Translations under genes and position numbers: made by a program
Origin: Curvibacter sp. AEP1-3
Lineage (GTDB): Bacteria > Pseudomonadota > Gammaproteobacteria > Burkholderiales > Burkholderiaceae_C
DNA length: 64,000 bases
Direction of reading: 5' to 3'
Assembly: GCF_002163715.1 (NCBI RefSeq)
Contig: NZ_CP015698.1
Span: 2,281,001 to 2,345,000 of the forward strand
Shown here: positions 2,387 through 52,431 of the stretch, one piece after another
Numbering within the stretch: the first letter of the stretch is position 1
Layout: the number at the start of each line of letters is the position of its first letter
Notes under the pieces: generated by a model
Database searches by the model: none
What the model was told of the DNA's origin: nothing
The model's input: the letters and a program-made list of their open reading frames with translations, nothing else

Positions 2387-3985
2387 TCAAAGCGCCTTGC
2401 GCAGCGAGGCGGGGGCAATCTTCAGGCCCTCGCGGTATTTGGCCACGGTGCGCCGGGCGCATTCAATGCCCTGCTCTTTGAGCATGTCGGAAATCTGGTT
2501 GTCGCTCAAGGGCTTTTTCGGGCTCTCGGAGGCGATGAACTGCTTGATCAGCGCCCGCACCGCCGTGCTGGAGGCATTGCCGCCGGACTCCGTGCCCAGG
2601 CCGGACCCGAAGAAATACTTCAACTCAAACGTGCCGAAGGGCGTCGCCATGTATTTGGCAGTGGTCACCCGGCTGATGGTGGATTCATGCAAGCCCAGTT
2701 CGTCTGCAATTTCGCGCAGCACCAGCGGGCGCATGGCCAGTTCGCCATGGGTGAAGAAGTTTTTCTGACGCTCCACAATCGCTGTGCTCACGCGCAGGAT
2801 GGTGTCAAAGCGCTGTTGGATGTTCTTGATGAACCAGCGCGCCTCCTGCAGGCGCTGCTGCAGACCGGCGTGGCTGGAGCTGGCTTTGTGGTTGCGCAGC
2901 ACATTGGCGTAAATGTCGTGCACCTTGAGGCGCGGCATCACATCCGGATTCAGTTGCACCCGGAATTTGGGCATTCCGCCCACTTTGCCGATGGGCACCA
3001 CCATCACATCAGGTACGACGATATTGCGCTCCACATCAATGAAGCGGCGGCCGGGCTTGGGCTCCAGACGGGCTATGAGCGCAATAGCCTCGCGCACCAG
3101 AGCATCGCTACCCACACCTGCTTGCACGAGGCGCTTGATGTCGCGACGGGCCAGCAGTTCCATGGGTTGCTTGCAAATGGCCAAAGCCACCTGCAGTACC
3201 TCAGTGCGATCCAATTCGCCATCTTCATCTGCGGTGGTCAGCAATGCCCGCAGCTGCAAGCGCAAACATTCACCCAAGTCACGCGCACCGACGCCGACCG
3301 GTTCCAGGCTGTGAAGCAGGCCCAATGCCACAGTGAAGTGGTGCACCAGTTCGTGGAGCTGCTCTTCGTCGGCAGGGTGCAGACTCTGGGCTAGCTCGGC
3401 CAGCGGGTCTTCCAGGTAGCCGTCGTCGTTGAGGGACTCGATCAGGAAGCGCAGTGCGGCCGCATCCTCGGCGCTCAAGCGCAAACCGGCGGCTTGGCGG
3501 TGCAGAAAGGACTGCAAAGACTCGCCCGAACGTGCCAGTTCGGTCGCATCCTTCTGCTCGTCGTCGTCCAGGTTGTTGGTTTTGGCTTTGGCATCCACAC
3601 CCCACTCGCCGTCGTCGGGGGTCATCTCTGTGGTGCCGTCGCCCTCCCAGTCGGGTTCATCGCTGCCGGACAGCGGAGTTGTCTCATCCTCATTCGAGCT
3701 GCTAGCGCTTGTACTGCTTGCATAGTCAGCTATCGAATTAGGAGCAAAGTCGCCTTCTTCGGATAGACGGTCTCCATCACTCACCGGTGCATCTACCGCA
3801 TCCAGGCCAAAGTCTTCCCGCTCAGCACGCTCTTCGGTGAGCTCCAGGAAGGGGTTTTCGTCCAGCATCTGCTCCACCTCCTGGCTGAGCTCCAGCGTGG
3901 AGAGTTGCAGCAAGCGGATGGATTGTTGCAGCTGCGGGGTGAGCGCCAGATGCTGCGAGACGCGAAGCGAAAGACCTTGTTTCAT
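2387..3985 (-). CDS. rpoN: RNA polymerase sigma-54 factor RpoN
   Basis: Alternative sigma factor recognising GG/GC (-24/-12) promoters and requiring AAA+ activators. 532 residues from ATG 3985. Residues 1-50 are the Gln/Leu-rich activator-interacting region I, followed by an acidic, poorly conserved region II (about 55-150), the core-binding region, and the C-terminal RpoN box ARRTVAKYRE. It is the last gene of lptA-lptB-rpoN and starts 8 bases after lptB, the order seen across proteobacteria. Oddity: region II residues 81-94 are encoded by a copy of the 41-base dispersed repeat found elsewhere in the window. A longer upstream TTG start would overlap lptB and is rejected. Confidence 0.97.
   Translation of the reverse strand: MKQGLSLRVSQHLALTPQLQQSIRLLQLSTLELSQEVEQMLDENPFLELTEERAEREDFGLDAVDAPVSDGDRLSEEGDFAPNSIADYASSTSASSSNEDETTPLSGSDEPDWEGDGTTEMTPDDGEWGVDAKAKTNNLDDDEQKDATELARSGESLQSFLHRQAAGLRLSAEDAAALRFLIESLNDDGYLEDPLAELAQSLHPADEEQLHELVHHFTVALGLLHSLEPVGVGARDLGECLRLQLRALLTTADEDGELDRTEVLQVALAICKQPMELLARRDIKRLVQAGVGSDALVREAIALIARLEPKPGRRFIDVERNIVVPDVMVVPIGKVGGMPKFRVQLNPDVMPRLKVHDIYANVLRNHKASSSHAGLQQRLQEARWFIKNIQQRFDTILRVSTAIVERQKNFFTHGELAMRPLVLREIADELGLHESTISRVTTAKYMATPFGTFELKYFFGSGLGTESGGNASSTAVRALIKQFIASESPKKPLSDNQISDMLKEQGIECARRTVAKYREGLKIAPASLRKAL
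3705..3745 (-). repeat. 41-base dispersed structured repeat, copy H, inside rpoN
   Basis: Read on the minus strand: GCTCC ... ATAGC, linker TGACT, ATGC in place of the first GCGC, 11 bases, GCGC, then TAG. It is translated within sigma-54 region II, about residues 81-94 (APNSIADYASSTSA). Confidence 0.7.
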
Positions 3986-3993
3986 CGATCCGC

Positions 3994-4770
3994 TTACATC
4001 TTGAAGTTTTCGCCGAGGTAGACGCGGCGGACATCGGCGTTGTTCACGATATCCGCCGGAGTGCCTTCGGCCAGCACGTGCCCGTCGCTGATGATGTAGG
4101 CGTGGTCGCAAATACCCAGCGTTTCGCGCACGTTATGGTCCGTAATCAACACGCCAATGCCACGCGCCTTCAGGAAGTTGATGATGCGTTGGATTTCGAT
4201 CACCGCAATCGGGTCGATACCTGCAAAAGGCTCATCCAGCAGGATGAAACGCGGCCTAGTCGCCAGCGCGCGGGCTATTTCCACCCGACGGCGCTCGCCA
4301 CCGGAGAGGGCAAGCGACGGAGACTCCCGCAAATGCTCCACACGGAGCTCTTGCAGCAAATCGGTAAGCCGGTGCTCGATCTCAGCCGGCTTCAGAGGCG
4401 CACCGGCATCATCGCGCTGCAATTCCAGCACTGCACGCACGTTGTCTTCCACATTGAGCTTGCGGAAGATGGAGGCTTCTTGCGGCAGGTAGCCGAGCCC
4501 CAAGCGGGCGCGCCGGTGGATCGGCATGTGCTCGATGCTCTGGCCGTCAATGGTGATGTCGCCGGCGCTCGCGCGCAGCAGACCCACAATCATGTAAAAC
4601 GAGGTCGTTTTGCCGGCACCGTTGGGGCCCAGCAAGCCCACCACTTCACCGGTGCGCACGGCCAGAGAAACATCTTTGACGACCTGCCGCTTGCCGTAAA
4701 ACTTCTGAAGGTGGCGGGCCTCAAGCCGCCCGGTAGCGCTGTCCGGGGTATCGGGTACTGCTGCGTTCAC
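3994..4770 (-). CDS. lptB: LPS export ABC transporter ATP-binding protein LptB
   Basis: Cytoplasmic ATPase of the LptB2FGC complex that extracts lipopolysaccharide from the inner membrane and drives it across the periplasm. 258 residues, starting with GTG at 4770 that overlaps the lptA stop as GTGA, indicating translational coupling. Walker [10 protein letters not shown] at 48-56, signature LSGGERRR near 155-162, Walker B FILLDEPF, and H-loop TDHNVRET are intact. The N-terminus is extended by about 15 residues relative to the E. coli protein. Adjacent lptA and rpoN support the assignment. Confidence 0.97.
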
Positions 4771-5372
4771 GGAACAGCTTTCTCAATCTGGGTCGTGGGC
4801 TTGAGCACCGCACCTGCAGCGGGTGGTGTCGTGACCGGATCGGCCTTGGGGGTCAGCATGGCACGCACACGGCCTGCGGGTGCAGCAGCTGTCTTGGGGG
4901 TGCCATCTACGGTAAAACGATCGGTCAGGTTCTCGTACACGATGACCGCACCGGTCACCTCGTCGGCCACCGTCGCACCCCGCAAACGGCGCATCTGGGC
5001 TTTTTTGATGAAGCGCACGGTATCGGCCTTGCCGTCGTACTCAATGGTGTCCCCCTCGCCTTCGATGAACTCTTCCAGTCCATCACGCTTCTGGCGGAAG
5101 AAGGCCTGCTTGCCGGGAGCGCCGGTCACCAGACCATATTGATAGCCCTCAGGGTCCTGGCGCACCTCGATTTGCGCGCCACGGATCAGGATGGAGCCCT
5201 TGGTGAGCACCACATTGCCGGAAAACACACTGACCTGCTTGAGGTCGTCGTACCGCAACGCGTCCGACTCCACGTTCATCGGTTTGTTGCGATCAGCCTT
5301 TTCGGCCCGAATACCCTCCGCCACACCGCACAGGGCCAGCAGTACTGACAGGGAGAACAGGATTTTTTTCAT
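4767..5372 (-). CDS. lptA: Periplasmic LPS transport protein LptA
   Basis: Forms the periplasmic bridge that carries LPS from LptC to LptD. 201 residues from ATG 5372 ([16 protein letters not shown]), a clear signal peptide ending about EGIRA. A longer start would run into the upstream DHH gene. The OstA/LptA domain follows, with the typical opening [23 protein letters not shown]. The C-terminal 40 residues are Pro/Ala-rich. First gene of the lptA-lptB-rpoN unit. LptC is not visible next to it in this window. Confidence 0.94.
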
Positions 5373-5446
5373 AAGGGCACGAAACTTGCTCGAAGAGCGC
5401 TCGTTGCATTGTACCGAGCGCTTCGGGCTTCCTGCCCTTGGTGCGC

Positions 5447-6379
5447 TCAACCGTCGGCGTTAATTTTGCTGATCAGTGCTTGAAGCACATCTGCGGCCTG
5501 CGCGTTGTCGACCTGGCAGGTTCCCGCATTGGCATGGCCGCCTCCGCCGTAACTCAGCATGAGCTCCCCGATATGGGTGTTGGAACTGCGGTTGGTGATG
5601 GACTTGCCGGTGGCAAACACGGTGTTTTGCTTTTGCAAACCCCAGAGCACGTGGATGGAAATATTGGTCTGCGGGAACAATGCATAAACCATGAAACGGT
5701 TCACGGCGTAGATGGTTTCTTCATTGCGCAAGTCCAGCACCAGAAGGTTGCCATGCACTGTGGAACAGCGCAAAAGCTGCTCCTTGGCCTTTCCGGCATG
5801 TTCGAAATACAGCTCCACGCGCTCCACCACGTCCGGTAACTGCAGAATTTCGTCGATGCCGTGGTTACGGCAGTACTGAATCAAATCCATCATCAGCTGG
5901 TAATTGCTGACGCGGAACTCGCGGAAGCGACCCAAGCCCGTGCGCGAATCCATCAGATAGTTCAGGAGCACCCAACCGCTAGGATTCATGATCTCGTCAT
6001 GGCAGAAACGCGCGGAGTCGCCCTTGTCTACCGCTTCCATCATGTCGTAAAAGCGCGCCGGAAAGCGGCTGGCACCGCCGTAGTGGTCGTACACCACGCG
6101 GGCAGCAGAGTCCGCATGCGGCAGGATGATGTGGTTTGAGCGTTCGCCGGTATTGCGAATGGTCTCGGATTCGTGGTGGTCAAACGCAAGGTGCACACCC
6201 GGTACATAAGGCAGGTTGGTGGTGATGTCGCGGTTGGACACCTCCACCTTGCCGTCTTGCATGTCTTTGGGGTGAACGAACTTGATGTCGTCTATCAAGT
6301 CCAGCTCGTTGAGCAGGACGGCGCACACCAGTCCATCGAAATCGCTACGGGTAACCAGACGGAATTTCTGACTCGACAT
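5447..6379 (-). CDS. DHH-family phosphoesterase (exopolyphosphatase/nanoRNase-like)
   Basis: 310 residues from ATG 6379. N-terminal DHH domain with SDFDG near residue 12 and FDHHESE near residue 70 as metal ligands. C-terminal DHHA1 domain with SYGGGGHANAG. Enzymes of this family hydrolyse phosphodiester or phosphoanhydride bonds in nanoRNA, cyclic dinucleotides or inorganic polyphosphate using Mn2+. The sequence alone does not settle the substrate. It is followed 74 bases later by lptA and preceded by dsbA on the same strand. Confidence 0.85.
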   Translation of the reverse strand: MSSQKFRLVTRSDFDGLVCAVLLNELDLIDDIKFVHPKDMQDGKVEVSNRDITTNLPYVPGVHLAFDHHESETIRNTGERSNHIILPHADSAARVVYDHYGGASRFPARFYDMMEAVDKGDSARFCHDEIMNPSGWVLLNYLMDSRTGLGRFREFRVSNYQLMMDLIQYCRNHGIDEILQLPDVVERVELYFEHAGKAKEQLLRCSTVHGNLLVLDLRNEETIYAVNRFMVYALFPQTNISIHVLWGLQKQNTVFATGKSITNRSSNTHIGELMLSYGGGGHANAGTCQVDNAQAADVLQALISKINADG

Positions 6380-6441
6380 AGAACGAAACCCTTGACGCAA
6401 AGATAAGGAAATTCATTCTAGCCCCGCCTTTGGCGGTGTGC

Positions 6442-6468
6442 GGCGGTCAGGCACAAAGCCGGACCGCC
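6442..6468 (-). terminator. Possible stem-loop downstream of dsbA
   Basis: Inverted repeat with outer arms GGCGGTC and GACCGCC and an inner partly paired segment, 10 bases past the dsbA stop. No clear U-tract follows, so it may be a 3' stabilising hairpin rather than an intrinsic terminator. Confidence 0.35.
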
Positions 6469-6477
6469 ACGGTCGCA

Positions 6478-7134: not shown

Positions 7135-7194
7135 TTCAAAAGACTCCATAGAGGCGGTGTGAGTGGACCCACCGCCGAAAGTTCCGGGAAAGAC

Positions 7195-7866: not shown

Positions 7867-7887
7867 GCCTTGCTTTCTTTGAAGGAA

Positions 7888-12859: not shown

Positions 12860-12865
12860 AAAATT

Positions 12866-12906
12866 ACTATTAATTTCATAGCTGCTTGCGCGTATTCCAC
12901 GAGCGC
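12866..12906 (+). repeat. 41-base dispersed structured repeat, copy B
   Basis: 17-base arm pair (ACTAT ... ATAGC), linker TGCTT, GCGC, 11 bases, GCGC, then CAG. It lies between the ubiA start and the oxyR stop, 22 bases past the oxyR stop codon. Confidence 0.85.
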
Positions 12907-12928
12907 CAGCAGCACTTTTTATTCAAAA

Positions 12929-13900
12929 TCAGGAGAGTCGACTCACACCCGGCAATTCACAGCTGTAGATGGCATTGCGCAACGCGGCAATCGCCTCATA
13001 GCGGGTAAAGCTGCGGCGCCAAGCCAGCACTACGCGGCGGGTGGGAGGCGGCAGGCTGCTGCCATCGGAGCGCGTGTCCAACACCGGCAGGTACTTCACA
13101 AAGCTTTCTTCGCCCCCCCGCTTTTTGGGCTCCAGGACCTCCTTGGGCACGCTCAGGCGCGGAACCAAAGTAATGCCCATGCCAGCCGCCACCATGTGCT
13201 TGATGGTCTCCAGCGAGGAGCCTTCGAAGCTCTTGCGAATGCCTTCGGCATCGCTGGAGAAGCGGGCGAACTCGGGGCAGACTTCGAGCACGTGGTCACG
13301 GAAGCAATGGCCGTTGCCCAGCAGCAGCATGGTCTCGCTCTTGAGTTGCTCGGCGGTCACCGAGGCCTGCTGAGCCAATGCATGGCTGGAGGGCACCGCG
13401 GCAAAAAAGGGCTCGTCATACAGTGGAGCCAGGGCCAGACCCGTGTCGGGAAAAGGCTCGGCCAGAATGGCGCAATCGATCTCGCCGGTGCGCAGCATCT
13501 CCAGCAGCTTGACGGTGAAGTTCTCCTGCAGCACCAGCGGCATCTGCGGGCTTTTGGTGATCACCTGGCGCACCAGGGCCGGCAGCAAATAGGGGGCAAT
13601 GGTGTAGATCACGCCCAGCTTCAAAGGCCCGGCCAGCGGGTCTTTGCCACGCTTGGCGATGTCCTTGATATTGGCCGCCTGCTCGAGCACGCTCTGGGCT
13701 TGACGCACGATTTCCTCGCCCAGGGGAGTCACGGTCACTTCGTTCGCGCTGCGCTCGAAGAGCTTTACATCCAACTCTTCTTCGAGTTTTTTAACCGCCA
13801 CCGACAGCGTAGGTTGCGAGACAAAACAGGCGTCCGCCGCCTTGCCGAAATGGCGCTCGCGGGCGACGGCGACGATGTACTTGAGTTCTGTGAGCGTCAT
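12929..13900 (-). CDS. oxyR: Hydrogen peroxide-sensing LysR regulator OxyR
   Basis: LysR-type regulator of the peroxide stress regulon. 323 residues, N-terminal winged helix-turn-helix (about 1-60) and effector domain. The redox cysteines fall exactly at Cys199 and Cys208 in GNGHCFRDHVLEVC, matching the E. coli numbering, so peroxide sensing by disulfide formation is well supported. Followed on the same strand by ubiA. The divergent-regulated target often found next to oxyR is not seen here. Confidence 0.95.
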   Translation of the reverse strand: MTLTELKYIVAVARERHFGKAADACFVSQPTLSVAVKKLEEELDVKLFERSANEVTVTPLGEEIVRQAQSVLEQAANIKDIAKRGKDPLAGPLKLGVIYTIAPYLLPALVRQVITKSPQMPLVLQENFTVKLLEMLRTGEIDCAILAEPFPDTGLALAPLYDEPFFAAVPSSHALAQQASVTAEQLKSETMLLLGNGHCFRDHVLEVCPEFARFSSDAEGIRKSFEGSSLETIKHMVAAGMGITLVPRLSVPKEVLEPKKRGGEESFVKYLPVLDTRSDGSSLPPPTRRVVLAWRRSFTRYEAIAALRNAIYSCELPGVSRLS

Positions 13901-16699: not shown

Positions 16700-16782
16700 G
16701 CCTCCCGCCTTCACTTCATGGCTAAGCCCGCATGGTTCCATGGCAGGGCGCACCCTGTCAATACGCTGTTCTGCGCATATAT

Positions 16783-16823
16783 GCTACAAATTTCATAGCC
16801 ACTCGCGCACGCACACCATGCGC
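16783..16823 (+). repeat. 41-base dispersed structured repeat, copy C
   Basis: GCTAC ... ATAGC arm pair, linker CACTC, GCGC, 11 bases, GCGC, then CAA. The core ends 16 bases from the recG stop codon. Confidence 0.85.
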
Positions 16824-16839
16824 CAAGGCCAGATTTCAT

Positions 16840-18942
16840 TCAGGCCTTGAGAAATTCTGCTTTCCCCCCCAACCAGCGGGCCACATGCTTGGCCGCCAAG
16901 TGCGGGTAGGTATCGAGCAGCATGGGCGCTTCGGCTTTGGCCCAGTCCAGCAGCTCGGTGTCGGTGGCCAGGTCCGCAAAGCGCAGCATGGCCTCGCCGC
17001 TCTGCCGTGCGCCCAAAAATTCACCGGGACCACGGATCTCCAAGTCACGCCGGGCAATCTCAAACCCGTCATTGGTCTCGGCCATGGCCTTCAGCCGCTC
17101 CCGAGCCGCTTCGCCCAATCGTGGGGCGTCGCCGGTGGAATACAGCAGCACGCAAGCCGATGCCGCAGCGCCCCGCCCTACCCGCCCGCGCAACTGGTGC
17201 AGCTGGCTGAGGCCGAAACGCTCGGCATGTTCAATCACCATCAGCGAGGCATTGGGCACATCCACACCCACTTCAATCACCGTCGTGCTTACCAGCACCG
17301 ACATCAGCCCCGCGGTGAAGGCGCCCATGACGGCCTTTTTGTCATCCACATGCATGCGCGAGTGCAGCAGCCCGATCAGCACCGGCTGACCATCTGAACG
17401 GGTAGCGCCCTGCAAAGCTTCTGCCAAGTCCGCGTGGGTCTGGGTGGCATTGCTCAGGTCCAAAGCTTCACTCTCTTCAATCAGCGGGCAGACCCAATAG
17501 ACCTGCCGGCCTTGGCTGATCTGTGCGCGGATGCGCTCAATCACCTCGTCGCGCCGCGCGTCGTTGACCACTTTGGTGACGATGGGCGTGCGCCCGGGAG
17601 GCAGCTCGTCCAGGGTGGATACATCGAGGTCTGCGTAGTAGCTCATCGCCAATGTTCTTGGAATCGGGGTGGCCGTCATCATGAGTAGATGGGGCTCCAT
17701 ATCCTCGTGGTGCAATTTGTTGCGAAGGGCCAGGCGTTGCGCCACGCCGAAGCGGTGCTGCTCATCGATGATGGCCAGGGCCAGGTTCTTGAACTTCACC
17801 TTGTCCTGGATGATGGCGTGGGTGCCCACCACCAGCTGGGCTTCACCACTCTCGATCAAGGCCAGCATGGCCCGCCGCTCCTTGGCCTTTTGTGTGCCGG
17901 TGAGCCAGGCGGTGGTAATGCCCAAGGGCTCCAGCCAGCCCAGCAGCTTGCGGAAGTGCTGCTCGGCCAAAATTTCGGTGGGCGCCATCAAGGCGCACTG
18001 CCAGCCCGCATCCATGCAGATCGCGGCAGCCAACGCTGCCACCACGGTCTTGCCGGCACCCACATCGCCCTGCAGCAAACGGTGCATGGGGATGCGGCGC
18101 GCCATGTCCTTGGCAATCTCTTCACCCACCCGCTTCTGGGCGTTCGTCAGGCCAAAAGGAAGCGCTGCCAGCAGGCGGGCGTGCAAAGTGCCGCCATCCA
18201 CCGCCTGGAGCTGCGGGGCCTTGAGGCTGGCGCGTTCTCGCCGGCTTTGCAACTGACTAATTTGTTGGGCCAACAGCTCCTCGGCCTTGAGCCGTTGCCA
18301 AGCGGGGTGGCTGTGGTCCATCAAGGTGTCGAGCGACACATCCGGCGTGGGGTGGTGCAAAAACTGTAGCGCGTCGCGCAGTGTCCACAAGGGCTGGTGC
18401 CCGTTTTTATGCTGACGGTGTTGCAACCACTCCAGATCGCCGGGCGCAAAGGTGTCGCTCAAATCGGCGCGCGCCAGGCCGGAGAGTACCGCCTTGCGCA
18501 GGTAGGCCTGGGGCAGGCCTGCCACCGTGGGGTAGACCGGTGTGAGCGCGGTCGGCAGATCCCCCCCGGCGGCTTTGAATGCGGGGTGCAGCATGGTGCG
18601 CCCCAGAAAACCGCCTTTGACTTCACCACGCACCCGCACCTTGTTGCCCACCGCGAGCGCCTTTTGCTGCGAGCCGTAGAAACTGAAGAAACGCAGGGTG
18701 CAGGTGTCGGTGCCGTCATCCACAGTCACGATGAGCTGGCGGCGCGGCCGGTAGCTCACTTCCTGGTGGGTGACCGTGGCTTCAATCTGGACCGGGGTGC
18801 TATCGCGCACGTCGATGAGCTTGACGATACGGGTTTCATCCTCGTAGCGCAGCGGCAAGTGCAAAGCCAGGTCGATGTCCCGGCGCAGGCCCAGCTTTTC
18901 GAGGGCTTTTTGCGACTCGGTTTTGGGCTTGGTGTCAGACAT
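16840..18942 (-). CDS. recG: ATP-dependent DNA helicase RecG
   Basis: Branch-migrating helicase that regresses stalled replication forks and processes Holliday junctions. 700 residues from ATG 18942; a longer frame overlaps the divergent Bug gene and is rejected. N-terminal wedge/OB domain (about 40-170), Walker A GDVGAGKT, DEQH box IDEQHRFG, helicase motif III MTATPIPRT, and C-terminal QLRGRVGRG. Full family length, intact. The gene order recG, oxyR, ubiA is typical of the order, though three other genes lie between recG and oxyR here. Confidence 0.97.
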   Translation of the reverse strand: MSDTKPKTESQKALEKLGLRRDIDLALHLPLRYEDETRIVKLIDVRDSTPVQIEATVTHQEVSYRPRRQLIVTVDDGTDTCTLRFFSFYGSQQKALAVGNKVRVRGEVKGGFLGRTMLHPAFKAAGGDLPTALTPVYPTVAGLPQAYLRKAVLSGLARADLSDTFAPGDLEWLQHRQHKNGHQPLWTLRDALQFLHHPTPDVSLDTLMDHSHPAWQRLKAEELLAQQISQLQSRRERASLKAPQLQAVDGGTLHARLLAALPFGLTNAQKRVGEEIAKDMARRIPMHRLLQGDVGAGKTVVAALAAAICMDAGWQCALMAPTEILAEQHFRKLLGWLEPLGITTAWLTGTQKAKERRAMLALIESGEAQLVVGTHAIIQDKVKFKNLALAIIDEQHRFGVAQRLALRNKLHHEDMEPHLLMMTATPIPRTLAMSYYADLDVSTLDELPPGRTPIVTKVVNDARRDEVIERIRAQISQGRQVYWVCPLIEESEALDLSNATQTHADLAEALQGATRSDGQPVLIGLLHSRMHVDDKKAVMGAFTAGLMSVLVSTTVIEVGVDVPNASLMVIEHAERFGLSQLHQLRGRVGRGAAASACVLLYSTGDAPRLGEAARERLKAMAETNDGFEIARRDLEIRGPGEFLGARQSGEAMLRFADLATDTELLDWAKAEAPMLLDTYPHLAAKHVARWLGGKAEFLKA

Positions 18943-23134: not shown

Positions 23135-23138
23135 ATTT

Positions 23139-23179
23139 GCTATTCATTTAATAGCTACTCGCGCAAACTCCACGGGCGC
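23139..23179 (+). repeat. 41-base dispersed structured repeat, copy A
   Basis: GCTAT ... ATAGC perfect 5-base arms, linker TACTC, GCGC, 11 bases, GCGC, then CAGAG. It sits directly after the tgt terminator and 27 bases past the stop of the convergent chemoreceptor. Confidence 0.88.
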
Positions 23180-23206
23180 CAGAGCCCGATTGGAGCCTGA
23201 TTCTGC

Positions 23207-24787
23207 TCATAGCTTGAAGGTTGCCACCACCTGCACCAGATCATTGGCCTGACTCTTCAGGCTGCTGGCAGCAGCTGCCATCTCTTCCACCAAGGCGGCG
23301 TTCTGTTGCGTAGCCTGATCCATCTGGGTGACCGCTTCTCCGACTTGGGAGACACCTGCACTCTGTTCTGAGCTGGCGGCGCTGATTTCTCCCATGATGT
23401 CTGTCACCCGGCGGATGCTGCTGACCACTTCGGTCATGGTTTCACCGGCTTTGTCTACCAGGCTGCTGCCCTGTTCCACACGCTCTACGCTGGCGTTGAT
23501 CAGGGTTTTGATTTCTTTGGCAGCTTCGGCAGACCGTCCTGCCAGCGACCGGACTTCAGAAGCGACGACTGCAAAGCCACGCCCTTGTTCTCCGGCACGG
23601 GCCGCTTCTACCGCTGCATTCAGGGCAAGGATGTTGGTCTGGAAGGCAATTCCATCAATGACGCTGATGATGTCTGCAATCTTGCGGCTGGACTCATTAA
23701 TGCCTTTCATGGTCTCTACGACCTGGCCAACGACTTCTCCGCCTTGAATAGCCACGGTAGAGGCATTCATGGCCAGTTGATTGGCTTGACGGGCGGAGTC
23801 GGCGTTTTGTTTGACGGTGGAGCCGAGTTCTTCCATGGACGCTGCGGTTTCTTCCAGAGCGCTGGCTTGTTGTTCGGTGCGGGCGGAGAGGTCGTTGTTG
23901 CCTTGGGCGATTTCGGCGCTGGCGGTGGCTACGGATTCGGAGCCTTCCCGAACGCGGGACACCACATGAGCCAGCTTGGACTGCATTTGCTCCAGACTGC
24001 TCAACAACCGCCCCAGCTCGTCCGAGCCTTTGGCCAACACCTGGCCGCTCAAGTCGCCATCGGCAATGCGACCGGCCAGTTCCATGGCCTGACGCACCGG
24101 CTGGATCACGCTGGTGGGAATAATCCAAATGAGCGCCAAGCCCACCACCACAATAACCAACAGGGCGCCCAACATCGCGCGCTCTGCCGATGCCACTGTA
24201 TCTTTCACCTTGAGGGCCGCATTGGCGGTGCCGTCCAGATTGAACTTGAGGATTTTCTCCATCGCCGTGTAGGCCTGATGGAATGCCGCTGGTGCTTTTT
24301 CGGCAAAGTCTTTGCGCGCCAAAGTCAGCATTTCTTCGGCGCCGCCAGCACCCTCCACCGCATCCAGCCCCACGCTGACCACCTTGAAATACGTGTCACG
24401 CTTGGCCTGGTAGTCCGCAAAAAGCGCTTTTTCTGCATCCGCCTGCGGGTCTCCCGCCTCGTAAGTAAGCAAAGTTGCGGCATACACCTCGGTGGCCTTG
24501 GTCAAGGCTTCGTCGTTCTCTTTCAAGCGCTTTTTGAAGGCAGCTGCGTCTTCCAGATCACGCCCACCTACCCGGTCGCTGACCAGCAGGTAGTGGTCTG
24601 CCACGTAGCCCTTCATATTGCCGAGGTTCTCAATGGCCGGAATCCAGGAGGTGGCTACTTCGCCCGACTCAAACTTCACCGACACATTGCGGTAGAGCGA
24701 GTTTGCCGCGCTCAGAATGGCCAGCGCCAGAATGATGGCCAGACCCAAGGTGATGCGTGCGCGAATGCCCAGACGGTTCAGGTTCAT
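23207..24787 (-). CDS. Methyl-accepting chemotaxis protein (four-helix-bundle sensor)
   Basis: 526 residues. Transmembrane segment about 10-30, periplasmic helical domain of the 4HB type (about 31-190), second membrane segment (about 192-212), HAMP (about 213-265), cytoplasmic methylation and signalling region with the conserved tip [19 protein letters not shown]. It ends shortly after the last coiled coil and has no CheR-binding pentapeptide. Ligand unknown. Next to another receptor of the same type, 103 bases away and in the same direction. Confidence 0.92.
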
Positions 24788-31672: not shown

Positions 31673-32221
31673 TCAGTGGGCGTGAGCGCCGGCGGCCTGG
31701 ACGTCCAGCACATCCAAACGGGCTGCGGGGGACTTCAGGCTGTGGGCATCCTGCCCGGCAGCAGGAATCTCGACCCAGGCGTTAGTGCCTTTGTCGCAGC
31801 CTTGCACGACCTTGAACCACAGGGTACCGGGCTTTTTGGGCGTGGTGCCGCGGAACATGAATTCATCGGCAAATGCGTCAGGTAATGCGTTCTCAGCGCC
31901 CTTGGCCGTCCAGGTGATTTCCTGCACGCCTTCGGTGTATTTGGTCCCGTGCATTTCATAGGGTTGGTCCAGCTTGCCGACCTTGGTGCTCACAGTCCAA
32001 CCAGCTTTCACCAAGGGCTGCGCGCCGTTAAAACCTGCAGGGATGGTGACGGTGATGGATGTGGTGGGCGCTCCGGCACAACCATGGCCCACCCGCAGTA
32101 CACCCCGATAGCCGGCGCCGGCAGCGGCAGCCTGGTCTTGCAGCGTTACATGAGAAAAAGCGGCGGTAGCGCCCATGGACATTGCGCAAGCAGCTACCAA
32201 TTGCATAGCAAAACGATTCAT
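31673..32221 (-). CDS. YcnI-like copper-binding protein (DUF1775)
   Basis: 182 residues. Signal peptide ending ATAAFS, so the mature protein begins HVTLQ with the N-terminal His that binds Cu(II) in YcnI proteins. The DUF1775 domain fills the rest and a C-terminal AGAHAH adds His. Lies 18 bases upstream of the PCuAC gene, so co-translated copper trafficking is likely. Membrane anchor of the usual YcnI C-terminus is absent. Confidence 0.88.
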   Translation of the reverse strand: MNRFAMQLVAACAMSMGATAAFSHVTLQDQAAAAGAGYRGVLRVGHGCAGAPTTSITVTIPAGFNGAQPLVKAGWTVSTKVGKLDQPYEMHGTKYTEGVQEITWTAKGAENALPDAFADEFMFRGTTPKKPGTLWFKVVQGCDKGTNAWVEIPAAGQDAHSLKSPAARLDVLDVQAAGAHAH

Positions 32222-34768: not shown

Positions 34769-34773
34769 GATTT

Positions 34774-34814
34774 GCTATCAAAAGTAGAGCTGCTCGCGCA
34801 ATCAATACGTGCGC
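34774..34814 (+). repeat. 41-base dispersed structured repeat, copy D
   Basis: GCTAT ... AGAGC arm pair (partly unpaired), linker TGCTC, GCGC, 11 bases, GCGC, then CAAGG. Core ends 10 bases from the FAH-family stop codon and lies 5 bases upstream of the fghA ATG, so it covers the fghA leader. Confidence 0.83.
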
Positions 34815-34824
34815 CAAGGGAAAA

Positions 34825-35898
34825 TCAAGAGGTCACGTCCTGGGCCGGATCGGCCTCGGGAACGGATGGAGCCGCGGTACTGCGGGACCGCACATCCAGA
34901 GGCACCACTTCCTGATTGATAGCGCCGAACACGCTGCCTCCGTCCCGGCCTTTGACTTCGATGCGGATGGTGTCACCGAACTTCATGTACTCGGTGCTGG
35001 GCTGGCCATCCTGCAGGGTTTCCATAGCGCGCTTTTCCGCAATGCAGCTGTAGCCATGGGGCCATTCCGTGCGGTTCTTGCGGGCCACGCCTTTGTTGCT
35101 GACGGTGCCGGAACCAACAATGGTGCCTGCCCGCAAACGACGGGTTTTGGCCGCATGGGCAATCAATTGACCGAAGTGGAAGTGCATGTCGCTTCCGGCC
35201 TCGCACATGCCGACCTTGCGACCGTTCCAGACGCATTGCACCGGCAGGTGCACCCGGCCACGCGCCCAGGCATCGCCCAGCTCGTCGGGTGTTACGACCA
35301 CCGGCGCAAACGCGGTGGCAGGTTTGCTCTGGACAAAGCCGAAGCCCTTGGCCAGTTCATCCGGCACCAGATTACGCAGGGTCACGTCGTTGACCAAGGC
35401 CAGAAGGCGCACAGCGTCCAGCGCGCGGTCCGACGCGCAACCCATGGGTACGTCGCCCGTGATCACTGCCAACTCAGCCTCGAAGTCCACGCCCCATGAC
35501 TCGCAGGCGCAAACGATCTCTGCATGAGGCCCGGCTAGGTCGTCGCTGCCACCTTGGTACATCAAGGGATCAGTCTGGGCACTCTCGGGCATGTCAGCAC
35601 CCCGTGCCTGACGCACCAGCTCCACATGGTTGAGGTAGGCCGAGCCGTCCAGCCACTGGTAGGCGCGCGGCAAAGGTGCCATGCATTGCGCAGGGTCAAA
35701 CGGAAATGCATGTCGCGCCCTACCCTGGTTGAGCTGGTGGTAGATGTCTTGCAGCGCGGGGGAAAGGTAGTTCCAGTCGTCCAGCACCTGTTGCAGGCGG
35801 TTGGCGATGTGGGTGGCGTAATGCGCCTGGCTCAGATCCCGGGATACGACGACCAGCTGGCCATCACGGGAACCGTCCTGATAGGTTGCGAGTTTCAT
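34825..35898 (-). CDS. Fumarylacetoacetate hydrolase family protein
   Basis: 357 residues, two-domain FAH fold (N-terminal about 1-90, C-terminal about 100-340). Metal ligands in the ACESWGVDFEAELAVI block (Glu/Glu/Asp) and further GTVSNKGVARKN near the end. Family members cleave C-C bonds of diketoacids, for example in aromatic-ring degradation. The exact substrate is open: homogentisate-pathway genes are not nearby. Divergent from the DUF3108 genes. A Ser/Pro-rich tail of about 20 residues extends past the fold. Confidence 0.85.
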   Translation of the reverse strand: MKLATYQDGSRDGQLVVVSRDLSQAHYATHIANRLQQVLDDWNYLSPALQDIYHQLNQGRARHAFPFDPAQCMAPLPRAYQWLDGSAYLNHVELVRQARGADMPESAQTDPLMYQGGSDDLAGPHAEIVCACESWGVDFEAELAVITGDVPMGCASDRALDAVRLLALVNDVTLRNLVPDELAKGFGFVQSKPATAFAPVVVTPDELGDAWARGRVHLPVQCVWNGRKVGMCEAGSDMHFHFGQLIAHAAKTRRLRAGTIVGSGTVSNKGVARKNRTEWPHGYSCIAEKRAMETLQDGQPSTEYMKFGDTIRIEVKGRDGGSVFGAINQEVVPLDVRSRSTAAPSVPEADPAQDVTS

Positions 35899-45638: not shown

Positions 45639-45642
45639 GTCC

Positions 45643-46473: not shown

Positions 46474-46588
46474 ATCAAGACATTTGAAAACTCTTTTTCT
46501 AGGTAGTTTCCCTCGACTCTCTTCCCCGGAAGACCGCAATGAGGGAGGCTGCCTCCGTGCGTCCAAAGACAACCCACAGGAGACAACC

Positions 46589-47473: not shown

Positions 47474-47481
47474 AGCGCCGC

Positions 47482-48015: not shown

Positions 48016-48224
48016 AGGATTGAGTGCTTAATCAGGGTCTAGCGCCCACAAAATATGCGCGAAAAGCTATCAAAAAGAGAGCATTTCGAATACCGGGGCA
48101 CATCTGACGTATTGCGCAAGATGCTGAATCCTAACGGGTGAACCTTGCCGCAAGCTGGCTGTGCGGTGATACGGCTCTTTGAAGGGGTAGATAAGCGCAA
48201 GGGTTCAGTGGCATCATCCCCGCC
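48016..48224. other. Divergent intergenic region between the marR and lysR genes
   Basis: Holds repeat copy E at 48042-48082, and 142 further bases with no recognisable promoter, operator or small gene. It separates the ferulate cluster from the glcD cluster. Confidence 0.6.
48042..48082 (-). repeat. 41-base dispersed structured repeat, copy E
   Basis: Read on the minus strand: GCTCT ... ATAGC, linker TTTTC, GCGC, 11 bases, GCGC, then TAG. It lies 26 bases upstream of the marR start. Confidence 0.78.
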
Positions 48225-49097
48225 ATGAGTGCCTCCCGCATCCCCCCGATTCAGTGCCTGTTGACCTTTGAAGCCCTGGCGCGCCTGCGCTCGGTCACCC
48301 TGGCGGCAGAAGAACTCTTTGTCACACCCAGCGCGGTGAGCCACCGGGTGCGGCAGCTGGAGCAAATCATCGGCACCAAGCTGTTCGGCCGCGCGGACTT
48401 TTCGCTGACCACTGAGGGCAGCGAATACCTGGCCCATGTGCGTGAAGGGCTCACCATCCTCCAGAAGTTTCCCAGCGCCGCTGCGGCACCGGGCAAGCGC
48501 AAGCTGCGCCTCGCGGTCACGCCCACGTTTTCGCGCTCCATTTTGATCCCGCGGCTGCGCCAGTTCACCGACGCCTACCCCGAGATCGACCTGACGCTGC
48601 AGGTCTCCATTCCCTTGTTGGACGTGGTGGCCGAAGATGCAGACCTGATGGTGCGCTTCGGGGCTGGCCGCTATGCCGACATGGAGCATGTGTGCCTCAT
48701 GAAGGACGAGATCACGCCCCTGGCCTCACCCGCTTTTGTGCGGGAACACGGCCCGTTCGAAACCCCGCAAGACCTGGCCAACCTGCCCCTGTTGCGCAGC
48801 CCGCTGGAACCCTGGCGCACCTGGTTTGCCGCCAACGGGCTGGACTGGCCGGAGCCGGTAGAGGGCTCGCAGTTCAACGACATCGGCCTCATGTGCGATG
48901 GCGCCGCCGCCGGCATGGGCGTGGGCCTGATCCGCCTGAAGCTGGGTTCGCCCTGGCTGGACAACGGCTCGCTGGTGCGGCTGTATGCCCACAATGCACC
49001 CAGCCCCCACGCGCACTACCTGTGCTGGCGCACCGGGGCCATGGACCGCTGGGAAGTGGCGGCCTTTGCCGAATGGCTCAAAAAAGCCGTGGGTTAG
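48225..49097 (+). CDS. LysR-type regulator (GcvA-like)
   Basis: 290 residues. N-terminal winged helix-turn-helix with LAAEELFVTPSAVSHRVRQLE at about 27-47 and effector domain. Sequence style is that of the GcvA/AmpR branch. Located 124 bases upstream of glcD on the same strand and probably its regulator, though it is not divergent. Inducer unknown. Confidence 0.85.
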   Translation: MSASRIPPIQCLLTFEALARLRSVTLAAEELFVTPSAVSHRVRQLEQIIGTKLFGRADFSLTTEGSEYLAHVREGLTILQKFPSAAAAPGKRKLRLAVTPTFSRSILIPRLRQFTDAYPEIDLTLQVSIPLLDVVAEDADLMVRFGAGRYADMEHVCLMKDEITPLASPAFVREHGPFETPQDLANLPLLRSPLEPWRTWFAANGLDWPEPVEGSQFNDIGLMCDGAAAGMGVGLIRLKLGSPWLDNGSLVRLYAHNAPSPHAHYLCWRTGAMDRWEVAAFAEWLKKAVG

Positions 49098-49221
49098 TCG
49101 CCCCAGCGGCCTTTGACTAGCCCTTTTTCACGCAGCGCTGCAAGTTTCTTCACACCACGGGGCTTCGCTTTCTTTTAGAGTGAGGCTTTCCGTCATTTCC
49201 TCTTAAGCACCGGACTCCTCC

Positions 49222-50724
49222 ATGAACGCCCCACTTGATCCAACCGCCCGGGAAATGCTACAAAAAAGAGAGCTGCTTGCGCTGATTCTGCCGGCGCTAG
49301 AGGCTTATTTACCCAAGCATGCGCTGCTCTACCAGACGGAAGACACCACGCCCTATGAATGCGACGGCCTGACTGCCTACCGCCAGCGCCCCTTGCTGGT
49401 GGCCCTGCCGGAAACCGAAGACCAAGTGGCTGCGGTGCTGCGGGTGTGCCATGACTTGAATGTGCCGGTGGTGGCTCGCGGCGCGGGCACCGGCCTGTCG
49501 GGTGGAGCCATGCCCCACGCCATGGGGGTCACACTCTCGCTGGCCAAGTTCAACAAAATCCTGAAGGTAGACAAGCGCAGCCGTACAGCGGTGGTGCAGT
49601 GCGGCGTGCGCAACCTGGCCATCAGCGAAGCGGCCGCACCCTACGGGCTGTATTACGCGCCGGACCCCAGCAGCCAGATTGCCTGCACGATTGGCGGCAA
49701 CGTGGCCGAGAACTCGGGCGGCGTGCACTGCCTGAAATACGGGCTGACGCTGCACAACGTGCTCAAAGTGCGTGGCTTCACCATGGAAGGTGCGCCCATC
49801 GAATTTGGTGGTGATGCGCTCGACGCGCCCGGCTACGACCTGATGAGCGTGGTGGTCGGCAGCGAGGGCATGCTGGCCGTGACCACCGAGGTTACTGTCA
49901 AACTGGTGCCCAAGCCCCAGCTGGCCCGCTGCATCATGGCCAGCTTTGACGACTTGCGCAAAGCGGGTGATGCGGTGGCCGCGGTGATCGCCGCCGGCAT
50001 CATCCCCGCCGGGCTGGAGATGATGGACAAGCCCATGACCGCCGCCGTAGAAGACTTTGTGCATGCGGGCTACGACCTGAGTGCCGAAGCGATTTTGCTT
50101 TGCGAAAGCGACGGTACACCCGAAGAAGTGGAAGAGGAAATCGGCCGCATGAGCGAAGTGCTGCGCGCCGCCGGCGCCACCGGCATTGCGGTGAGCAACA
50201 GCGAGGCAGAACGCCTGCGCTTCTGGAGCGGGCGCAAGAACGCCTTCCCCGCCAGCGGCCGCATCAGCCCTGACTACATGTGCATGGACAGCACCATTCC
50301 CCGCGCGCGGCTGGCCGACATCCTGCTGGCCATTGCAGAGATGGAGAAGAAATACCAACTGCGCTGCGCCAACGTGTTCCACGCCGGGGACGGCAACCTG
50401 CACCCGCTGATCTTGTTCGATGCGAATGACCCCGACCAACTGCACCGCTGCGAGCTGTTCGGCGCCGAAATTCTGGAAACCAGCGTCGCCATGGGCGGCA
50501 CCGTGACCGGCGAGCATGGCGTGGGCGTGGAAAAGCTCAACAGCATGTGCGTGCAGTTCAGCGCGCAAGAGAACGCCCAGATGTTCGCCCTCAAAGAGGC
50601 GTTCGACCCCAAGAGCCTGCTCAACCCCGGCAAGGTGATTCCTACCCTGCACCGCTGTGCGGAGTACGGCAAGGAACTGGTGCGCGGCGGCAAGATCAAG
50701 CACCCGGACCTGCCCCGGTTCTAG
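49222..50724 (+). CDS. glcD: FAD-linked glycolate oxidase subunit GlcD
   Basis: FAD enzyme that oxidises glycolate (or D-lactate) to glyoxylate. 500 residues. PP-loop FAD domain with RGAGTGLSGGAMP (about 92-104), PDPSSQIACTIGGNVAENSGG (about 150-170), and C-terminal GTVTGEHGVGVEK. Similar along its whole length to E. coli GlcD; glcE and glcF are not adjacent. Residues 12-26 are encoded by a copy of the 41-base dispersed repeat, in a region that is poorly conserved in the family. Followed 5 bases later by lrgA. Confidence 0.92.
   Translation: MNAPLDPTAREMLQKRELLALILPALEAYLPKHALLYQTEDTTPYECDGLTAYRQRPLLVALPETEDQVAAVLRVCHDLNVPVVARGAGTGLSGGAMPHAMGVTLSLAKFNKILKVDKRSRTAVVQCGVRNLAISEAAAPYGLYYAPDPSSQIACTIGGNVAENSGGVHCLKYGLTLHNVLKVRGFTMEGAPIEFGGDALDAPGYDLMSVVVGSEGMLAVTTEVTVKLVPKPQLARCIMASFDDLRKAGDAVAAVIAAGIIPAGLEMMDKPMTAAVEDFVHAGYDLSAEAILLCESDGTPEEVEEEIGRMSEVLRAAGATGIAVSNSEAERLRFWSGRKNAFPASGRISPDYMCMDSTIPRARLADILLAIAEMEKKYQLRCANVFHAGDGNLHPLILFDANDPDQLHRCELFGAEILETSVAMGGTVTGEHGVGVEKLNSMCVQFSAQENAQMFALKEAFDPKSLLNPGKVIPTLHRCAEYGKELVRGGKIKHPDLPRF
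49257..49297 (+). repeat. 41-base dispersed structured repeat, copy G, inside glcD
   Basis: GCTAC ... AGAGC, linker TGCTT, GCGC, 11 bases, GCGC, then TAGAGGC. It is translated in frame as part of glcD residues 12-26 (about MLQKRELLALILPAL). Confidence 0.83.
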
Positions 50725-50729
50725 CCGCC

Positions 50730-51095
50730 ATGCAAGGCTTGCGCGGCTTGGCCTGGCTCCTGGCGCTGCAAAGCGCCGGTGAGTTGCTGGCCCGCGGTCT
50801 GCACCTGCCGTTTCCGGGCCCGGTGGTCGGCATGGTCTTGCTGATTCCGGCCCTTCAGTGGCCCCTGGTGCGTGAGCCCGTCAGCCAGTGCGCGGACTTT
50901 CTGCTCAGTCATCTCTCGCTTTTGTTCATACCGGTCGGGGTGGGCGTCATGACCCACTTGGCCCTGCTCAGCCAATATGGCGGGCGCATGCTGGTGGTGC
51001 TGGTGCTTTCCACCTGGATAGGTCTTGCCGTCACGGCACTGACCCTGTACACCCTGAGCCGCCGGGACACGGAAGACGAGGCTCCCCATGGCTGA
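50730..51095 (+). CDS. lrgA: LrgA/CidA-family membrane protein
   Basis: 121 residues from ATG 50730, four membrane segments, with LPFPGPVVGMVLL near the N-terminus and LFIPVGVGVM in the middle, the LrgA/CidA family marks. In B. subtilis this family works with LrgB as a pyruvate carrier, and the plant LrgAB fusion PLGG1 carries glycolate/glycerate. Its coupling to glcD favours a carboxylate role here. Overlaps lrgB by 8 bases. Confidence 0.88.
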   Translation: MQGLRGLAWLLALQSAGELLARGLHLPFPGPVVGMVLLIPALQWPLVREPVSQCADFLLSHLSLLFIPVGVGVMTHLALLSQYGGRMLVVLVLSTWIGLAVTALTLYTLSRRDTEDEAPHG

Positions 51096-51807
51096 CGTCG
51101 TGGCCCTGTGGGTCTACCTGTCGGCCACACCACTTTTCGGCCTGACGGCCACCCTGGTGACCTATGTGCTGGCGCACGCTGTGTACCAGCGCACCGGCCA
51201 AGCCGTCTGGGCCAACCCGGTGCTCTGGAGCGTGCTCATCCTCGCCAGCCTCTTGCTGGCCACCGGGGTGAGCTACCCGGGATACTTCTCGGGTGCGCAG
51301 TTCATCCACTTTTTGCTGGGACCGGCGGTCGTTGCCTTGGGCTGGCCCCTGTGGCAACGCAGGGTCGAAGTGCAAAAACGTTTGGGGCGTTTGCTCGTGG
51401 CCGCCTTGGTCGGCGGCACGGCGGCCAGCGGATCCGCACTGGCACTGGGCTGGGCCCTGGGTTTGCCCGGCGATGTGCTGTTGTCCATGGCGCCCAAGTC
51501 CGTAACCGCGCCCGTGGCGATGGGCATCGCTGAAAAGATAGGTGGTATTCCTGCGCTGTCAGCCGTGTTTGCCGTGCTCACCGGCCTGATCGGGGCACTG
51601 AGCGGCAGGCTCATTTTTGGCCTGCTGCGCCTTCCCTATAGTGGCAACGGCTGGGCCGCACGCGGCTTTGCGCTGGGCACCGCCTCGCACGGCATAGGCG
51701 CGGCACGCGCGCTCCAGGTAAATGCGGATGCCGGCGCCTACGCCGGGCTGGCGCTGGGCCTGCAAGTGGTATTGGCGTCGCTGTTGATGCCCTTGTTTTT
51801 CCGCTGA
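51088..51807 (+). CDS. lrgB: LrgB/CidB-family membrane protein
   Basis: 239 residues. Seven or more membrane segments, with YFSGAQFIHFLLGPAVVALGWP, APKSVTAPVAMGIAEKIGG and the closing FALGTASHGIGAARAL, all canonical LrgB signatures. Overlap with lrgA shows translational coupling. Together with LrgA probably moves glycolate, lactate or pyruvate; the older holin-like reading is less likely next to glcD. Confidence 0.9.
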   Translation: MADVVALWVYLSATPLFGLTATLVTYVLAHAVYQRTGQAVWANPVLWSVLILASLLLATGVSYPGYFSGAQFIHFLLGPAVVALGWPLWQRRVEVQKRLGRLLVAALVGGTAASGSALALGWALGLPGDVLLSMAPKSVTAPVAMGIAEKIGGIPALSAVFAVLTGLIGALSGRLIFGLLRLPYSGNGWAARGFALGTASHGIGAARALQVNADAGAYAGLALGLQVVLASLLMPLFFR

Positions 51808-51826
51808 ACGCCGAAGCGGATCGCCA

Positions 51827-52237
51827 TTAGAACTTCGAGCTGATCACGAAGTTGATGGTGCCGGACTCGCCCACGAATGCCTGGTACTGAAAGGACTGTC
51901 CCGCTGCGGTGGTGTAAACCGAACGCCATTGGGCCATCAGGTTTTTGCCGTTGGGGTCATAGGCCAGTTCCAAGGGGATGCTGCTGAACGAAGTCAGTGC
52001 CACACCCAGTTTTTTCCGGGCCCCGTCGTGCCGGGTGTCATAAGCCACCAGGGTGTTTTGCAGGGATGCTTCGATAGATTTGCGGTCCGAGTCCGATTTG
52101 GCCAAGAGGCTGCGGTCCGACTGATTGAGGGAGGGCGCTGCACCGGATGGCAGGCGCGTGAGTGAAATCAGCTCCTGCGCGCACACAGGCCCCGCCAGCA
52201 CGGCACAGCTTAGGGATGCGAAGGCTAGGACTTTCAT
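51827..52237 (-). CDS. Hypothetical secreted protein
   Basis: 136 residues from ATG 52237 (AGGAG upstream). Signal peptide ending VCAQ, then a beta-rich soluble domain with FQYQAFVGESGTINFVISS at the C-terminus. No family recognised. Converges with lrgB. Periplasmic or extracellular location inferred. Confidence 0.65.
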   Translation of the reverse strand: MKVLAFASLSCAVLAGPVCAQELISLTRLPSGAAPSLNQSDRSLLAKSDSDRKSIEASLQNTLVAYDTRHDGARKKLGVALTSFSSIPLELAYDPNGKNLMAQWRSVYTTAAGQSFQYQAFVGESGTINFVISSKF

Positions 52238-52390
52238 GGCGCACTCCTGACACACTCAGGAACCTACTGTGGCACAAGCCTGCCGGCTTGAAAAGCCGAA
52301 AAAGCCCGCTGAATGCAACAGTTTGTAGGCCCTGGCACCCTATAGCCTTGGATACGCCCCGCCTAACTTCAGGTAACAAATAAGCCACTG

Positions 52391-52431
52391 GCGCCCATAC
52401 CATATGCGCCAGTAGCTATCTAATTCATAGC
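52391..52431 (-). repeat. 41-base dispersed structured repeat, copy F (best paired copy)
   Basis: Read on the minus strand: GCTAT ... ATAGC with perfect 5-base arms, linker TACTG, GCGC, 11 bases, GCGC, then CAGTGGC. ACTGGCGC and GCGCCAGT form an 8-base second stem. It ends 2 bases from the PhyH stop codon. Confidence 0.9.

Follow-up and report, generated by a model that had tools for sequence, protein, structure and literature searches.

A dispersed 67-bp motif in Curvibacter and other Comamonadaceae with properties of a DNA uptake sequence

The 64,000-nucleotide stretch of the Curvibacter sp. AEP1-3 chromosome considered here (contig NZ_CP015698.1, positions 2,281,001 to 2,345,000; the window) includes rpoN, recG, a LysR-type gene and a chemotaxis receptor gene, and scattered in and between its genes lies a motif of 67 bp, of which a matrix scan finds ten copies (Table 1). 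A first-pass annotation of this DNA had described a structured repeat of 41 bases in eight copies. All eight are real: they lie at the coordinates and on the strands given, align without a gap and produce eight matches to the regular expression proposed for them, against none in 100 dinucleotide shuffles. The repeat itself therefore stands; its length and its total do not, as two copies had been missed and conservation extends over 67 bp. Taken together, the properties of this motif make us lean towards a function like that of a DNA uptake sequence.

Table 1. Copies of the motif in the window (positions of the window, scores from the G000 matrix, gene identities by Pfam where named; G000 is AEP1-3 and G007 a second species), and the Y1_Tnp gene elsewhere in the genome
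Feature	Position	Strand	Location	Score
Copy A	3683..3749	-	in rpoN (sigma-54), in the part that separates the activator-interacting domain from the core-binding domain	28.9 bits; common to G007 at 32.3 bits
Copy B	12862..12928	+	start of a minus-strand gene on one side, LysR-type gene stop (12929-13900, -) on the other	78.2 bits
Copy C	16779..16845	+	between a solute-binding protein gene and the recG stop	48.8 bits
Weak copy, new here	18350..18416	+	in recG, antisense	27.7 bits; G007 site 10.8 bits
Copy D	23135..23201	+	immediately after a chemotaxis receptor gene stop (23207-24787, -)	72.8 bits
Strong copy, new here	32147..32213	-	one mismatch to the earlier regular expression (GGTAGC)	65.0 bits
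Copy E	34770..34836	+	between an esterase gene and an FAA-hydrolase gene	38.8 bits
Copy F	48020..48086	-	overlaps the end of open reading frame (ORF) 48039-48689(-), which has no Pfam match	62.2 bits
Copy G	49253..49319	+	spans an FAD-linked oxidase gene start (set at 49255; upstream ATG at 49222 possible)	58.9 bits
Copy H	52369..52435	-	at the stop of a PhyH-family gene (52434-53288, -)	65.8 bits
Y1_Tnp gene	G000:C1:3624709-3625431 (L319:9709-10431)		240-aa ORF, sole match in the genome	

Columns are numbered from the first base of an ATAGC anchor (column 0), so that the motif spans columns -16 to 50; G000 is the genome under study (4.38 Mb), G035 a motif-free congener used as the null, and the remaining G numbers denote further Comamonadaceae genomes. 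The extent of the motif comes from an alignment of 38 copies, 30 from the G000 genome and eight from the window, in which a gapless conserved block runs from 16 bases 5' to 50 bases 3' of the anchor, with near-random columns outside it; 26 of the 67 consensus positions are G or C. Scanned with a 67-column position matrix scored in bits, a 464-kb sample of G000 (the window plus 400 kb) yields 74 copies that exceed 5 bits (72 also exceed 25 bits), against maxima of -6.6 bits in order-2 shuffled sequence (5 x 464 kb) and -2.4 bits in 200 kb of G035; single copies score up to 80 bits. The density of about one copy per 6 kb extrapolates from this sample to roughly 700 copies in the genome, in line with the hundreds anticipated at first pass. 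A strict core pattern whose gap was left free at 9-13 finds 83 matches at 82 places genome-wide, with identical spacing in all and no match in the reversed control, so the invariant spacing noted in eight copies extends to the genome as a whole; a covariance model run on G000 matched all 150 of the candidates scored out of 3408, a count of at least 150. By matrix, strict pattern and comparison with G035, then, the copy number lies far above chance, as it does for uptake sequences. Half-matrix scans covering 864 kb from two species leave seven half-matches above the control, the sole sign of truncated copies. One copy, at G000:C1:2432600-2432670, fits the strict pattern on both strands and thus has a palindromic core.

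Once present, these copies are kept. G007 shares 67 of the 68 testable G000 copies at the orthologous place, six further copies falling beyond the ends of the G007 stretches compared. Between the two species, high-information columns differ by 7.1% in 37 intergenic pairs and by 5.5% in 30 in-gene pairs, and low-information columns by 14.3% and 11.3%, respectively; columns 1-4, 11-13 and 25 show no change in the 37 intergenic pairs and 0-2 changes each in the 30 in-gene pairs. The element as a whole is no better conserved than its 100-bp flanks, taken on each side with coding and non-coding DNA pooled (intergenic 9.6% vs 5.6%; in-gene 7.5% vs 6.7%), and it is consequently the pattern across columns, instead of overall identity, that shows the constraint.

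How, then, did the copies come about? Many can be followed in coding sequence: 34 of the 74 copies in the sample, or 33 if just the 72 exceeding 25 bits are counted, lie in genes predicted by a simple gene finder, 18 in sense and 16 in antisense orientation, with sense frame 0 (15 copies) and antisense frame 1 (11 copies) favoured. By Pfam, the genes concerned include RpoN, RecG, alanine racemase, KDPG aldolase, PolA and HemD, alongside YggS (Ala_racemase_N), LipB and PutA-type genes, whose names we assigned from Pfam domain sets. At the yggS site, compared across 30 genomes of the genus including G000 (30 loci from among 42 matching genomes), the motif is present in 16 (33-58 bits) and absent from 14 (-14 to -83 bits), and not one of the 30 has an insertion or deletion across it; the motif was therefore made there by substitution. 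The lipB site (30 loci from among 40 matching genomes) scores above 25 bits in nine genomes, 9-19 bits in four and below 0 in 17, and 27 of the 30 show no indel, the remaining three, all motif-free, carrying a 4-codon deletion. Length is likewise unchanged against motif-free G035 homologs for the hemD copy (65.5 bits), for an acyltransferase gene that we take to be FabD-like and for an HpcH/HpaI-type gene, as it is against the G026 homolog for a 3-hydroxyisobutyrate-dehydrogenase-type gene. In total, this evidence covers seven gene sites and concerns in-gene copies, four homolog comparisons at 23-32% identity having been left out of the indel count; six of the seven show no length change against motif-free homologs, and the point-mutation evolution of uptake signal sequences (USS), described in the cited passages of PMC7811141 as something other than the insertion of elements and as accompanied by rigid AT tracts, has the same mark. 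At most testable gene sites, the motif thus arose by substitutions within existing sequence. Insertion as a unit was considered for two copies that G000 and G007 do not share (R1 69560, in a putA-type gene, and S2 72158), both of which sit in complex length changes and neither of which is a clean insertion. Synonymous recoding was also tried as a null: 30 of 30 wholly in-gene copies beat 2000 recodings, but these sites were preselected for high score, and with all genes recoded the motif scores still reach 39, part of the motif being dictated by the encoded residues. For this reason motif-free G035 serves as the null.

In G000 the motif is built of the base blocks GCTAY, ATAGCT, GCGC and GCGC, rigidly spaced, and of A/T tracts at columns -6 to -2 and 38 to 41, which consist of runs of A, runs of T or AATT-like steps and contain few TpA steps (6 vs 20.7 expected in the first tract, 1 vs 10 in the second). 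Depletion of TpA at columns 38 to 41 recurs in all six lineages compared (G000, G299, G167, G015, G098 and G063); at columns -6 to -2 it is clear in G000, G299 and G167 and not in G015, G098 or G063, and a third short tract at 48 to 50 shows none in the four lineages examined. So far as rigidity can be read from sequence, columns 38 to 41 hold a rigid tract like those of USS, and the avoidance of TpA points to the shape of double-stranded DNA as a likely part of the signal. The same six lineages share one frame and differ in the middle of the consensus, as dialects would: it reads GCGCAnATTCnACGGGCGC in G000, GCGCATnTnnnACTAGCGC in G299, GCGCTTG...AAGCGC in G167 and AAACTAT...CCATTTGACGGGGGCTAA in G098, whilst G015 uses a GGGC form. 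Copies in G026 mostly read RTGCA; decay of the motif was considered there and set aside, as the core of its ten copies forms a fairly consistent dialect of its own. On G098:C6 (L298-L307), in a genome of 66% GC, the copies are very uniform and belong to a strongly deviating dialect, ATAGCAAACTAT...CCATTTGACGGGGGCTAA, which may be the recent re-spread of a new dialect.

The two stems suggested at first pass did not survive comparison. Alignment folding and pair counts over the 38 copies detect no covariation above shuffles, and permutation tests for compensatory changes on both proposed stem axes give only scattered nominal values in five lineages (lowest P 0.017); in G098 none of 22 copies forms the innermost GCGC/GCGC pair, yet the motif is strong. 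Nor does the window contain an Rfam match, so that neither of the marks of a structured RNA, an Rfam family or covarying stems, was found.

Five G000-specific stretches of at least 1.5 kb, 46.6 kb in total, hold no copy where about 8 would be expected, against 67 copies in the remaining 379 kb, and 4.3 kb of G007-specific DNA hold none either; this is the restriction to the core genome known from uptake sequences, seen here in one species pair with one 34.6-kb stretch dominating. That stretch (G000:C1:2398021-2432578, L153-L155), which has no counterpart in the G007 DNA compared and no motif copy, is a probable genomic island, and one of its ORFs resembles an integrase-type transposase by eye. 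Per base, intergenic DNA of G000 shows an enrichment of about eight-fold in the motif, with the greatest density per kb of intergenic DNA between convergent genes; divergent gene pairs flank 6 of 36 intergenic copies. The share of copies in genes varies by lineage: 3 of 12 in G015, 2 of 21 in G299, 11 of 23 in G167, 5 of 22 in G098 and 7 of 20 in G063. It had been remarked that five of the six intergenic copies then recognised lie 2-27 bases past a minus-strand stop codon, which is accurate for the window (B 22, C 16, D 27, E 10 and H 2 bases) and does not hold as a general rule, as the larger G000 sample has copies beside genes of both strands and in both orientations. The 82 strict places split 50 vs 32 between the strands (P 0.06) and use the chromosome deciles evenly (P 0.40), and there is no clear replication-related pattern in these data. 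Spacing is more even than random in G000 and G007 (coefficient of variation 0.56-0.70, P 0.0002-0.016, the two sets being orthologous and hence not independent) and again in G063 (P 0.001), and is not so in G015, G299, G167 or G098; we give this evenness little weight because the spacing of USS is itself described as uneven in the passages of PMC7811141 cited here.

Across the family, the expectation that similar motifs exist in other Comamonadaceae is borne out: at least 100 of 250 genomes, in 59 of 126 genera, carry a match at E 1e-6, a lower bound given that the survey used a model of the G000 dialect and strict filters. An order-wide draw of 200 genomes gave seven with a match, five in the same family and two with single weak hits elsewhere, so that the motif is nearly restricted to one family. 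Among the matches listed, named carriers of the strict pattern include Rhodoferax, Polaromonas, Acidovorax, Simplicispira, Ottowia, Curvibacter, Giesbergeria and Xenophilus. A single motif copy used as the query matched nothing in plasmid and phage records, which is a weak test of a variable motif; seven viral contigs (L271-L277) have one strict match each and might include host DNA flanking prophages. As for the machinery that might read such a motif, ComEC is present in all 67 family genomes with ten or more motif matches (counted by hand, no more than 20 matches being scored per genome), and pilins of the ComP_DUS family occur both with and without the motif. G098 was considered as a motif-rich genome with a broken comEC and dismissed, as its N-terminal ComEC match lies at a contig end and reflects a break in the assembly.

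We liken the motif to uptake sequences because its properties together match those reported for the DNA uptake sequences (DUS) of Neisseriaceae and the USS of Pasteurellaceae, and we think it somewhat probable, on this combined analysis, that it works as they do. Like the USS of Haemophilus influenzae and its relatives, it has a GC-containing core, AT tracts of probably rigid shape, an origin by point mutation at most gene sites compared and variants between lineages, whilst the H. influenzae USS is described with a 9-bp core and ~2,200 copies, or about one per kb, and here the motif is 67 bp long, occurs about once per 6-10 kb and belongs to another sequence and another family (passages of PMC7811141). 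The likeness to DUS lies in enrichment in the core genome, absence from recently acquired genes, permissive positions and conservation of the sequence itself (as set out in part of PMC2397512), and in dialects between species of one family (as set out in part of PMC3630211). In contrast to the long, single copies described here, DUS are given as 10 bp with thousands of copies in the passages of PMC7811141, partly as inverted pairs in terminators and with many arisen by recombination in those of PMC2397512. We have therefore not filed the motif as either a DUS or a USS: uptake is our inference, and the length is far greater.

If the likeness is more than superficial, the following could be envisaged. 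A DNA receptor of the competence or type IV pilus machinery would read the motif on double-stranded DNA, using the rigidly spaced base blocks and the A/T tracts that avoid TpA. Fragments of kin DNA bearing the motif would enter preferentially and then recombine into the chromosome, and mutations that improve the match would spread through biased conversion; substitutions would thus create copies wherever the adjacent genes allow it, and these copies would persist. They would accumulate in the core genome, newly acquired DNA would be without them, and genera would have drifted to separate dialects within the same 67-bp frame. We infer, in other words, that a protein reads the motif, that this protein belongs to the uptake machinery, and that the copies are maintained by drive and not by a function in the cell. 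The bolder formulation, over which we are evenly divided, is that the Comamonadaceae have independently evolved a third language of self-DNA recognition: a 67-bp duplex address, read partly by shape, kept by drive at some 700 sites that include core genes, and split into genus dialects that bias exchange towards kin.

Several observations weigh against recognition by an uptake machinery. At 67 bp and up to 80 bits, the motif is far longer than known uptake sequences, the DUS and USS being short motifs with a core of about 10 bp plus AT tracts, and its density of one per 6-10 kb compares with about one per kb in H. influenzae (passages of PMC7811141). The link to competence is weak in these data: with or without the motif, 244 of the 250 family genomes have ComEC; motif-free congeners such as G035 also have ComEC and pilins of the ComP_DUS family, and of these two neither tracks the presence of the motif, nor was any gene found that does. 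G026 (99% complete, 90 contigs) keeps a motif in its own dialect with no PF03772 match and no PF13567 match above the cut-off, to be explained by a gap in the assembly or by a loss in recent time. A single stretch of 34.6 kb accounts for the bulk of the species-specific DNA tested. At the gene sites, a motif-free homolog of the peptidase-S49 gene R2_88009 has a 9-residue linker gap, and motif-bearing relatives show a 13-residue difference beside the site in hemD (L104) and a 23-residue difference beside that in R2_154619 (L098), so that insertion could account for some individual sites. Finally, many neisserial DUS arise by recombination rather than point mutation (part of PMC2397512), and a substitution origin is thus no universal mark of an uptake sequence.

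Could the reader instead be a protein that organises the chromosome or its topology, such as a nucleoid protein, a condensin loader or the enzyme of a strong gyrase-type site, bound every few kb and kept in place by selection on chromosome structure? The duplex-shape signature, the fairly even spacing in G000, G007 and G063, the unbiased deciles and the lack of copies in species-specific DNA would all suit such a site, and 67 bp might well correspond to the footprint of a wrapping protein complex. This would require selection at each of about 700 sites, many of them in genes, for a motif that seems dispensable (150 of the 250 family genomes have no match at E 1e-6 with the G000-dialect model, carriers being a lower bound), and such strong changes of dialect between genera would presumably be unusual for sites of this kind; we consider it rather unlikely. 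Biased conversion could also be driven by another reader with no link to competence, for instance a nuclease or recombinase initiating repair at the motif or next to it, which would account equally for substitution origin, conservation and dialects, and for a motif in G026 where no comEC was detected. Kin DNA must presumably still enter the cell somehow, and we know of no such conversion system for a 67-bp duplex motif; of all the explanations weighed here we hold this one the least probable.

Repetitive extragenic palindromic (REP) sequences, by comparison, occur as hundreds of dispersed, mostly extragenic copies and are linked to RAYT transposases, and a REP-like spread had been suggested from the window. 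A non-autonomous repeat of this type, or one akin to miniature inverted-repeat transposable elements, moved by a transposase such as RAYT and later kept for a function, would explain dispersed copies enriched between genes and beside stop codons, the close likeness of the G098 copies in their middle and the length differences near a few in-gene sites. AEP1-3 also encodes one Y1_Tnp gene, RAYT-like by our own label, and a weak copy lies across its stop codon (G000:C1:3625422-3625488; L319:10422-10488). That copy scores 19.9 bits with the G000 matrix and 45.4 bits with the G167 matrix, a reversal seen in 7 of the 74 sampled copies, and the next copies are 4-5 kb off; the foreign dialect suggests an origin of the gene in another Comamonadaceae lineage, and the gene was rejected as the mover of the resident dialect, which is not linked to it. 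With 67 of 68 sites common to two species, truncated copies limited to a few half-matches, no palindrome with compensatory changes, no cognate copies flanking the RAYT-like gene and no insertion signature at most tested sites (exceptions at a few), mobilisation of this kind is already disfavoured, and we think it distinctly unlikely. More doubtful still, and in our judgement very improbable, is an RNA element at mRNA 3' ends, whether a terminator, a stabiliser or a processing signal. Copies often adjoin stop codons, they are densest between convergent genes, and the sole G007-only copy overlaps a terminator-like hairpin by eye; against this stand the 34 in-gene copies in both orientations, which also speak against the 3'-end role first proposed, the copies between divergent genes, and the lack of both compensatory changes and, in the window, an Rfam match.

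Part of the motif has been seen before. Tong et al. (2017) described a fixed-spacing pair, ATAGCT(N)22CAAAAG, in 125 copies in Polaromonas naphthalenivorans CJ2, of which 101 are intergenic, 18 in genes and 6 overlapping, and convergent genes flank 34 copies; amongst the genomes they scanned the highest count was that of Rhodoferax ferrireducens T118, with 140 pairs, and the passages of PMC5217627 cited here leave the pair unexplained, propose no function and doubt a role in transcription initiation. This pair maps to columns 0-5 and 28-33 of the 67-bp frame, and 120 loci of other genomes (897 kb) contain it at two places, each of which is a complete copy of the motif (42.7 and 68.6 bits). The report, in those passages, concerns one species and does not extend the pair to 67 bp, compare it between species or treat substitution origin or A-tracts. 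The BRE repeats, dispersed in Bordetella and some Comamonadaceae at intergenic and intragenic positions, are similar in distribution; they differ, as characterised in part of PMC3110155, in measuring 75-91 bp, in a mean GC content of 69% in Bordetella, in tandem arrays of variable number at some loci and in numbering at most 29 copies, and it is by this description that we set the single-copy, AT-richer 67-bp motif with its ~700 occurrences apart from them. In the open-licence literature we found no report of an uptake sequence in Comamonadaceae, one unrelated paper for Burkholderiales and no mention of six sequence stretches taken from the motif.

Strongly sequence-biased DNA uptake had, as of 2020, been described in two bacterial families (passages of PMC7811141). 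If our preferred interpretation, a DNA uptake sequence, is true, then the Comamonadaceae would add a third and unrelated case with a motif several times longer, which would imply that self-recognition evolves repeatedly, and would offer a new natural experiment on whether selfish drive or a role in repair lies behind such sequences. It would predict partners of gene exchange within a widespread environmental family, and dialect mismatch could serve as a mark of recent transfers. It would also mean that parts of conserved proteins (YggS, HemD, LipB and the linker of RpoN) have been shaped by a DNA signal unrelated to the proteins themselves. And if something other than the uptake machinery proves to be the reader, a new explanation would be needed for a 67-bp address at 700 sites. 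In G000 the comEC ORF itself (C1:1086911-1089415; L321:6911-9415) carries the motif twice, at C1:1088156 with 68.5 bits and at C1:1089230 with 56.7 bits.

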